Shown: positions 17,043 to 18,266 of the stretch, one piece after another
Position numbering within the stretch: position 1 is the first letter of the stretch
Layout: each line of letters begins with the position of its first letter
Source: Prochlorococcus sp. AG-347-K20
Lineage (GTDB): Bacteria > Cyanobacteriota > Cyanobacteriia > PCC-6307 > Cyanobiaceae
Length of the DNA stretch: 64,000 nucleotides
Assembly: GCA_003281315.1 (NCBI GenBank)
Contig: QCCH01000001.1
Span: forward strand, 1 to 64,000
Reading direction: 5' to 3'
Made by a program: the position numbers and the translations under genes
Notes under the pieces: model-generated
Database searches by the model: none
Told to the model about the DNA's origin: nothing
The model's input: only the letters and a program-made list of their open reading frames with translations

Positions 17043-17627
17043 TTAACTTAAACCTATCTCTTTTTTTAAAAAAGGTGACATAATTTTTGCAGCTTTACCT
17101 CTACTACCTAATTTATTTAGTTGTGATTGTGAGAGCTCACCGTAAACACAGTTAGACTCTTTTACCCAAAAAATAGATTCGAATTCCCCGTTTGGATATT
17201 TGGGGTTCTTAAGAATTTCTCCCCAGCATATTCCTGTTGTATCTTTAACTAAGTTTCCTGAGGGATCGCACAAAACCATACAACTTATAAATCTTGCACT
17301 CCTATAAGGACTATCAGAAAGTTCATTAATTAATTTTTTAATTTTCTCATCATTAGTTTTGGCATATCGAGCAGAATAAATTCCTGGCCGACCATCTAAA
17401 ACATCTACTTCAAGACCCGAGTCATCAGCTAATGCCCAAGTTTTAGTCTCTAAAGCAGCTGCTTTTGCTTTTAGAAGTGCATTCTCAAAATATGTGTTTC
17501 CAGTCTCTTCGACATTTAAATATTCTGGTTGCTTCTGAACCTTTAAAGACAAAACATCCAGCATCTCTGAAATTTCAGATACTTTTCTTTGATTGCCACT
17601 AGCAATCGTTAGAACTGGAAGGTTCAA
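17043..17627 (-). CDS. rdgB: XTP/dITP pyrophosphatase (RdgB/HAM1)
   Basis: 194 residues. The enzyme hydrolyses non-canonical purine triphosphates (ITP, dITP, XTP) to the monophosphate, protecting DNA and RNA. The N-terminal ASGNQRKVSEI motif and the ALADDSGLEVDVLDGRPGIYSARYA-type core near residues 65-90 are family signatures. It lies on the minus strand between csoS1D and csoS1, convergent with the first and divergent from the second. There is no evident functional link to carboxysomes, but its start borders the csoS1 regulatory region. Confidence 0.94.
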   Translation of the reverse strand: MNLPVLTIASGNQRKVSEISEMLDVLSLKVQKQPEYLNVEETGNTYFENALLKAKAAALETKTWALADDSGLEVDVLDGRPGIYSARYAKTNDEKIKKLINELSDSPYRSARFISCMVLCDPSGNLVKDTTGICWGEILKNPKYPNGEFESIFWVKESNCVYGELSQSQLNKLGSRGKAAKIMSPFLKKEIGLS

Positions 17628-17674
17628 AATAACAAATAAATTTACTGTGAATATTATCTTACTTCAAAGCTTGA

Positions 17675-17731
17675 TACGGAGACAGGAAAGGTTGAACATT
17701 CCACACCTGTATAGACAGGGCCTGTCTCGTA
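17675..17731. promoter_or_regulatory. GC-rich nested inverted-repeat element
   Basis: TACGGAGACAGG (17675-17686) pairs with CCTGTCTCGTA (17721-17731), 11 bp with one bulged G. Inside, CCTGT (17706-17710) pairs with ACAGG (17715-17719) over a 4-nt loop. The alternative pairing AGACAGG-G-CCTGTCT (17713-17727) is a perfect 7-bp inverted repeat. The element stands out by its GC content. It could be a small structured RNA, a leader element or an operator array. Confidence 0.5.
17692..17705 (+). repeat. 14-nt direct repeat, copy 1
   Basis: TTGAACATTCCACA lies in the loop of the GC-rich element and recurs exactly at 17923-17936 next to the csoS1 start, 231 bp away. Confidence 0.55.
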
Positions 17732-17804
17732 CGGAAATAACATAATGTAAATTTTTTCTTAACACAACAGTATGTTTTGATGCACTAACTAATTTCTATA
17801 AGTA

Positions 17805-17833
17805 TTGACATATCAATAGTACCAAGGGTGATA
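17805..17833 (+). promoter_or_regulatory. Possible promoter of the csoS1-rbcLS operon
   Basis: A perfect TTGACA (17805-17810) is followed after 17 bp by GTGATA (17828-17833), a weak -10. The spacing is ideal but the -10 is poor, so this is a candidate only. Transcription from here would give a leader of over 100 nt carrying both downstream palindromes. Confidence 0.3.
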
Positions 17834-17900
17834 AGTTTAACTTATGAATCATAGAAAAAACATTAATGGAGATTTTGTCGAAAACGCTTGACTTATAAGT
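17831..17900. promoter_or_regulatory. Two palindromes with a shared ATAAGT/ACTTAT half-site
   Basis: ATAAGTT-T-AACTTAT (17831-17845) is a perfect 7-bp inverted repeat. ACTTATAAGT (17891-17900) is self-complementary and uses the same half-site in the opposite order. Both precede csoS1. They look like operator sites for a dimeric regulator; a CbbR/LysR-type factor is the obvious candidate by context, not by proven match. Confidence 0.45.
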
Positions 17901-17922
17901 ACTTAATGAAGCATTCTTCGAA

Positions 17923-17936
17923 TTGAACATTCCACA
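17923..17936 (+). repeat. 14-nt direct repeat, copy 2 (csoS1 leader)
   Basis: This is an exact second copy of TTGAACATTCCACA, ending 18 bp before the csoS1 ATG, in the place where a ribosome binding site would be. No Shine-Dalgarno sequence is seen here. Confidence 0.55.
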
Positions 17937-17954
17937 TTTAGTATTTAGTAGACA

Positions 17955-18266
17955 ATGGCTACAGAAACAATGGGTATCGCTCTCGGCATGATCGAGACAC
18001 GCGGACTTGTACCTGCAATCGAAGCAGCAGACGCAATGACAAAGGCAGCAGAAGTTCGCCTTATTGGTCGTGAATTCGTTGGTGGCGGTTATGTCACAGT
18101 ATTAGTTAGAGGCGAAACAGGCGCAGTTAACGCAGCTGTAAGAGCTGGTGCTGATGCTTGTGAAAGAGTTGGTGACGGTTTAGTTGCAGCTCACATTATT
18201 GCTCGTCCTCATAGAGAAGTTGAACCTGCTCTAGGTAACGGTGAATTTCTTGGTCAAAAGGACTAA
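17955..18266 (+). CDS. csoS1: Major carboxysome shell protein CsoS1
   Basis: 103 residues, a single BMC domain. CsoS1 forms the hexagonal tiles of the alpha-carboxysome facets, with narrow pores thought to pass bicarbonate and sugar phosphates. The sequence MATETMGIALGMIETRGLVP and the HIIARPHREVE segment are typical. It is the first gene of the csoS1-rbcL-rbcS-csoS2-csoSCA-csoS4A-csoS4B series. Codon use is less AT-biased than in its neighbours (GGC, CGC, GAC codons at the start), as expected for a very highly expressed gene. Confidence 0.98.
   Translation: MATETMGIALGMIETRGLVPAIEAADAMTKAAEVRLIGREFVGGGYVTVLVRGETGAVNAAVRAGADACERVGDGLVAAHIIARPHREVEPALGNGEFLGQKD

Follow-up and report, generated by a model that had tools for sequence, protein, structure and literature searches.

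The rdgB–csoS1 locus

The window, by which we mean the whole 64-kb stretch of DNA that was analysed, comes from a genome of 1.5 Mb and contains two open reading frames on opposite strands that are separated by a gap of 327 bp. We take the first to be rdgB, encoding an NTP pyrophosphatase, and the second to be csoS1, the first gene ahead of what is presumably rbcL. The following features lie at this locus:

17043-17627, minus strand: open reading frame of rdgB, located 3' of the RNA element on the minus strand
17675-17731, assigned to the minus strand: candidate three-helix RNA element
17831-17845, plus strand: palindrome ATAAG-N5-CTTAT, upstream of the csoS1 promoter boxes
17888-17893, plus strand: predicted -35 box of csoS1 (TTGACT)
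17912-17917, plus strand: predicted -10 box of csoS1 (CATTCT)
17923-17936, plus strand: putative target site TTGAACATTCCACA
17955-18266, plus strand: open reading frame of csoS1, ahead of rbcL (18336)

Conservation of the gap is unusually high. The window was aligned with 139 relatives to give 140 distinct sequences, and in the 20-bp bins covering positions 17655-17754 the agreement with the window was 0.946-0.985, whereas the start of rdgB itself gave 0.855-0.912. An initial reading of this DNA from its letters (hereafter the sequence-only reading) had described a conspicuous GC-rich patch in the gap. This is true locally: the G+C content of 60-base windows peaks at 47%, compared with roughly 23-38% in neighbouring windows of the gap. 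The patch is only locally GC-rich, however, because windows within the csoS1 coding sequence also reach 43-55%.

The two boxes assigned to the csoS1 promoter belong to a rigid arrangement in relatives, TTGACN-18-CANNNT-7-GAAC, which was found in 264 of 270 loci (the spacer is 17 bases long in one of them, and some genomes are counted twice). In the window, the GAAC of the target site stands 7 nt past the -10 box, and the site ends 18 nt before the csoS1 ATG. This arrangement places the copy of GAACATTCC at the base where transcription of csoS1 is predicted to begin, some 30 nt ahead of the ATG, so that the csoS1 transcript would start near 17925, at the target site. The promoter blocks of the gap are conserved in a 27-row alignment of the family, and the palindrome is kept in most of its rows. 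The palindrome is possibly an RbcR/LysR-type site of the csoS1 promoter; it resembles the RbcR motif, given as ATTA(G/A)-N5-(C/T)TAAT in the accessible part of a published report (PMC13249358).

A conserved three-helix RNA element

Both of the nested stems proposed in the sequence-only reading are present, and they form part of a structure with the following components:

17675-17686 with 17721-17731: outer helix P1 of 11 bp, TAC-(G)-GAGACAGG pairing with CCTGTCTCGTA, with a bulge at 17678
within 17675-17731, assigned to the minus strand: region of the loop and helix P2
17706-17710 with 17715-17719: helix P3, the inner 5-bp stem, CCTGT pairing with ACAGG
17692-17705, assigned to the minus strand: conserved loop, predicted RNA 5'-UGUGGAAUGUUCAA-3'
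17739-17744, minus strand: predicted -10 box TATGTT, 7 nt ahead of the first base of P1

On the minus strand, the loop displayed by the helices has the sequence GUGGAAUGUUCA. The sequence of the element folds better than most of its shuffled versions on both strands, with z-scores of -2.51 on the plus strand (3 of 200 shuffles equally good) and -2.21 on the minus strand (5 of 200). A covariance model of the element (R1) matches positions 17677-17731 of the minus strand with a score of 45.1 bits.

The conservation of the structure was analysed on relatives presenting the loop motif. A total of 229 out of 250 sequences contained this motif with at most two mismatches, and thinning reduced them to 68 rows, 31 of which were of near-equal length and were used to measure covariation. 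In these 31 relatives, 99.6% of the cells of the outer helix are paired and seven of its eight pairs have changed on both sides. Over the whole structure, changes on both sides were observed for 11 of the 15 pairs, compared to a mean of 3.1 in shuffles and at most five in slid controls, although the shuffle counts do not represent probabilities since the sequences are related. Across all 68 rows, 508 of the 544 outer-helix cells pair, some rows of Synechococcus-type being misaligned (here and below, the labels HL, Synechococcus-type and Cyanobium-type are our own assignments, based in part on G+C content and gene order). The arms of P1 vary in sequence among relatives yet remain complementary, as in GAGACAGG/CCTGTCTC, GCAACACG/CGTGTTGC, GGAACCGGC/GCCGGTTCC, AAGCGTGC/GCACGCTT and GGATCGGC/GCCGATCC. 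Compensatory base changes, the feature expected of a conserved structured RNA, are therefore present, and the conservation and covariation in relatives on which the sequence-only reading had staked its proposal both speak for the element.

We also searched 26 further motif matches, of which 21 (17 distinct) contained an outer helix of at least 6 bp, whereas a free search with shuffled flanks yielded a mean of 10 and a maximum of 17; pairing was partly selected for in this set, as all but two of these loci (L335 and L404) are R1 matches. These helices are supportive but not decisive. Overall, the element is very probably a conserved structured RNA, our confidence being slightly reduced because the additional helices are less telling against the shuffled-flank control.

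The sequence-only reading had also noted an alternative pairing and suggested mutually exclusive structures. Such a pairing is possible in the window because ACAGG/CCTGT recurs four times. The third helix as read by eye differs in sequence in other family members, and the alternative pairing was not seen by eye outside the genus, so that a mutually exclusive switch is probably not common to relatives.

Strand and predicted start of the RNA

Several observations indicate that the element is, with high probability, read on the minus strand. When oriented on this strand, the 31-row alignment presents 35 G-U cells against four A-C cells. The consensus fold of the 68-row alignment forms the helix on the minus strand and none on the plus strand. 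Within the genus of the window, all the changes in the P1 core would be A-C on the plus strand and G-U on the minus strand, and these perhaps represent few events. Minimum energies did not differ between strands in the 68 relatives (p = 0.14). The strand test was neutral on 17 further helices (two minus-type against four plus-type cells). The count for HL helices was based on a pattern sensitive only to plus-strand A-C changes; a symmetric search likewise detected no G-U within the 8-bp core of HL helices.

On the minus strand, a TANNNT motif was found ahead of P1 in 67 of the 68 relatives (shuffled mean 20, maximum 36), its end lying 5-11 nt from the 8-bp core of this helix. In the window, this motif is TATGTT at 17744-17739, which leads to a predicted start near 17731, the position at which P1 begins and which also bounds the element as originally delimited. 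No terminator-like site was found within 17550-18000, and the RNA may therefore be a leader of rdgB.

Distribution across picocyanobacteria

We identified csoS1 in 139 of 151 genomes of the family. Among 80 upstream regions from 79 genomes outside the genus, the motif with at most two mismatches out of 12 was present in the upstream region of 57 and directly before csoS1 in 71, in AT-rich and GC-rich genomes alike. Using strict filters, R1 matched 186 of 300 family genomes and 44 of 59 genera; these counts represent lower bounds, since some elements are missed, and they include the training rows of R1 among the matches. None of 54 genomes from other families of the class presented a match. The element corresponds to no family of Rfam 15 at the gathering score, the sole match of the window being a tRNA elsewhere, and a search of Rfam with seven sources of the element and E-values up to 5 returned a single match (E = 2.2) with a bit score far below gathering.

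In Cyanobium-type genomes, R1 detects the element on the rdgB side, and csoS1 follows about 1.6-2.5 kb downstream. Genes lie between the two in L301, L305, L307 and most of L328-L347, and we read them as sbtA (a bicarbonate transporter) and sbtB (its PII-like partner). The csoS1 site is retained in all eleven Cyanobium-type genomes examined. This gene order speaks against a fixed-length DNA loop and in favour of an RNA on the rdgB side that is able to act at a distance. A separate observation concerns a 36.9-kb contig (contig 17 of G200), which carries two copies of csoS1 35 kb apart near its ends (L216 and L217), each with an element; this pair is perhaps an assembly duplication.

Complementarity between the loop and the predicted csoS1 5' end

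The key feature of the locus was absent from the sequence-only reading: an exact second copy of the loop 14-mer TTGAACATTCCACA (17692-17705) lies at 17923-17936, immediately ahead of csoS1. Because the two stretches have the same letters, the loop on the minus strand is the exact complement of the predicted csoS1 5' end. Out of 12,790 stretches of the 64-kb window, the csoS1 5' end forms the best duplex with the loop (-25.7 kcal/mol), leaving aside the element's own complement.

All 68 sites and 66 of 68 loops carry the 9-nt core GGAAUGUUC without a mismatch. Agreement between loop and site exceeds that of shuffled pairs at position 11 (0.72 vs 0.49) and position 12 (0.88 vs 0.59), although these 68 relatives were chosen for carrying the motif within two mismatches and their relatedness inflates the agreement. 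At position 11, a loop C facing a target T, which would form a G-U pair in a minus-strand RNA, was observed ten times and a loop T facing a target C (A-C) was never observed; besides the G-U cases, loop and site are mismatched in nine of the 68 relatives. On the tree, loop and site change on the same branch weakly more often than by chance at position 12 (p = 0.016), and no more often than by chance at positions 11 and 10 (p = 0.13 and 0.07, respectively). The tree-aware evidence for joint change of loop and site is thus weak.

The presence of the element and the integrity of the site are associated. The csoS1 site GAACATTCC is intact in all 69 loci with the element, against nine of 23 without it; this count omits L217, whose genome is shared with L216, as well as seven loci superseded by longer versions, and element status was coded by hand from R1 matches, with L253 added by motif and the degenerate L335 and L239 scored as absent. 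In a second set of 40 genomes, in which only G272 is common to the first set, the site is intact in 13 of 14 genomes with the element against nine of 26 without it; G272 and G317 were scored among these 26 for lack of an R1 hit despite an upstream motif, and G317 presents no outer helix in the searched range. In the one genome with an element and a site that is not intact (G294), the outer helix is largely broken and the loop is altered, which represents joint decay of loop, helix and site and not compensation. The site may also have another role, because nine of the 23 loci without the element keep it. Moreover, six loci or genomes (G245, G303, G339, G343, L335 and L344) present the loop variant GAACAGTCC, with one mismatch, facing an unchanged site, which counts against strict pairing. 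Conserved complementarity to an mRNA start region, as expected of a base-pairing small RNA, was thus found with exceptions and with a weak tree test. The loop of the element probably pairs with the 5' end of csoS1.

Proposed mechanism and alternative explanations

These results suggest, with a probability of roughly 0.6, that the element is a divergent RNA whose loop pairs with the 5' end of the csoS1-rbcL message and sets the output of the operon. In the mechanism that we infer from the computed structure, conservation, complementarity and loop–site co-occurrence, a minus-strand transcript would start at or near the first base of P1, with the element as its structured 5' end, and extend toward rdgB. 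It may work as a small RNA derived from the leader or while still within the rdgB message. The helices would expose the loop GUGGAAUGUUCA, and in the cell this loop would bind the predicted 5' end of the csoS1-rbcL-cso message (its first ~9-14 nt, GAACAUUCCAC..), which lies about 20 nt ahead of the start codon. Such pairing could mask the 5' end from 5'-end-dependent decay, impede ribosome loading, or both, and in this way set carboxysome and Rubisco output. As to the direction of the effect, the location of the site at the predicted transcript start slightly favours protection of the 5' end over a translational block. The more specific proposal that a family-wide alpha-cyanobacterial RNA from the rdgB leader masks the carboxysome-Rubisco message 5' end in trans is tentative, and we give it somewhat less than an even chance. 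Of the roles suggested in the sequence-only reading, that of a small RNA controlling the Rubisco/carboxysome operon survives, given the conservation, the compensatory changes and the complementarity between the loop and the predicted 5' end of csoS1 mRNA.

Alternatively, the RNA might be a cis-acting leader of rdgB that is regulated by a protein, a ligand or itself, its likeness to the csoS1 5' end being secondary. The element indeed lies directly upstream of rdgB and stays there when genes separate it from csoS1, and its loop is nearly complementary to the region of the rdgB start codon (139 of 169 loci of the genus present no more than two mismatches out of 12). This match is weak outside the genus, however, where none of 80 loci present zero or one mismatch and four present two, and the explanation does not account for site loss at csoS1 where the element is missing; we consider it unlikely. 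The start codon region of rdgB (17616-17627, mRNA UUGAACCUUCCA) is an observation in its own right: the leader might fold onto its own start, or the match may reflect a constraint on the codons.

It is also conceivable that the two copies of the motif are DNA operators of one transcription factor, forming a repression loop or serving two divergent promoters, with an incidental hairpin. The same motif is found near both predicted starts, the spacing of the copies is mostly 230-238 bp where the gap holds both, and element and site are lost together. This explanation is quite improbable and the operator array of the sequence-only reading is disfavoured along with it: the P1 arms differ in sequence but keep their complementarity, the spacing extends to about 1.6-2.5 kb in Cyanobium-type genomes, and the bias between G-U and A-C is not expected of a DNA site.

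There is little to recommend a csoS1 leader element or switch on the plus strand, as the sequence-only reading had implied. The element folds equally well on this strand as a single sequence, the minimum energies of the 68 relatives do not separate the strands, and a promoter-like site is found at 17629-17657. Nevertheless, the wobble pairs favour the minus strand by 35 to four (while being neutral on further loci), the conserved csoS1 promoter is downstream of the element, and promoter-like matches are below the shuffled expectation (one vs a mean of 1.8). Finally, conservation of the region as promoter DNA with no RNA function, as it was read in a 2005 screen, is very hard to sustain since compensatory changes in P1 exceed shuffles and slid controls, even though the promoter blocks are truly conserved.

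Relation to known RNAs

The literature searched, including the main texts of PMC7368042, PMC3898218, PMC5069720 and PMC2897979 as far as accessible, yielded no description of the element; an unremarked transcript may exist in supplements. The statement of the sequence-only reading that no element had been described here is nearly right, the exception being cluster 87 of Axmann 2005, which the accessible part of that report lists as untested ('Region upstream of the rbcLS cluster containing conserved promoter'; ALIFOLDZ Z -4.24/-3.64; 336 aligned nt, one sequence each from MIT and WH8 genomes) and for which that part gives no structure or target (PMC1242208). This region upstream of the rbcLS cluster is very probably the rdgB–csoS1 gap. 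We take PMM0548 and PMM0549 to be the locus tags of rdgB and csoS1. Neither tag appears among the neighbours in Table 1 of the ncRNA survey of Steglich 2008 or in the accessible main text (PMC2518516).

According to the available part of one report, FasX of group A Streptococcus binds the 5' end of ska mRNA, blocks exoribonuclease access and raises stability (PMC12675982); the predicted target of the element is likewise a message 5' end, that of csoS1. FasX is a stand-alone small RNA of 205 nt, whereas the element would be divergent, 5'-terminal and possibly part of an mRNA leader, and the two are likened here by the position of the predicted site. RblR, an antisense RNA of Synechocystis 6803, is a case of RNA control of Rubisco in a cyanobacterium, as proposed here (PMC5306279). 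Unlike the element, RblR is reportedly antisense to rbcL and belongs to a beta-cyanobacterium.

In the sources available to us, Yfr1/Yfr10 and Yfr2 are base-pairing small RNAs of Prochlorococcus, the same organisms as those carrying the element. Their conserved motif presumably differs from that of the element. A pull-down with Yfr10 enriched csoS1 and csoS2 mRNA, according to the accessible part of the report (PMC6778093), and is the only post-transcriptional link to the alpha-carboxysome operon found in the literature searched. The predictions give the element a single partner, the initial bases of the csoS1-rbcL message, and this allows a precise and cheap test with the lineages lacking the element as natural controls. 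Prochlorococcus and Synechococcus perform a large share of ocean CO2 fixation. Pairing of the element with the carboxysome-Rubisco message may tune this process and, if the proposal is correct, an rdgB-leader RNA would, in the most abundant phototrophs on Earth, link the capacity for CO2 fixation to the cleansing of the nucleotide pool by way of rdgB transcription.

Other copies of the motif

Additional copies of the motif were evaluated as candidate elements and rejected. Two further copies of GTGGAATGTTC in the genome of the window are both inside open reading frames, one in a short frame ending ...MSPLRAGYLQCAKNTLWNVQQSNTKKKF before an rpoD-like gene and the other at the end of an ABC-transporter-like frame. 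Open frames also span the extra copies in G338, G336 and G203. None of the 13 motif stretches from viral contigs was convincing: the best R1 match had an E-value of 0.0021 (match G+C 0.67), and an open frame runs through the motif in each of four stretches (L348, L352, L357 and L360). The short open frame ending MSPLRAGYLQCAKNTLWNVQQSNTKKKF is also found between rpoD-like and priA-like genes at ~1454-1540 of L275, where it is highly conserved (20 rows including the genome of the window); the loop 11-mer within it is due to chance.
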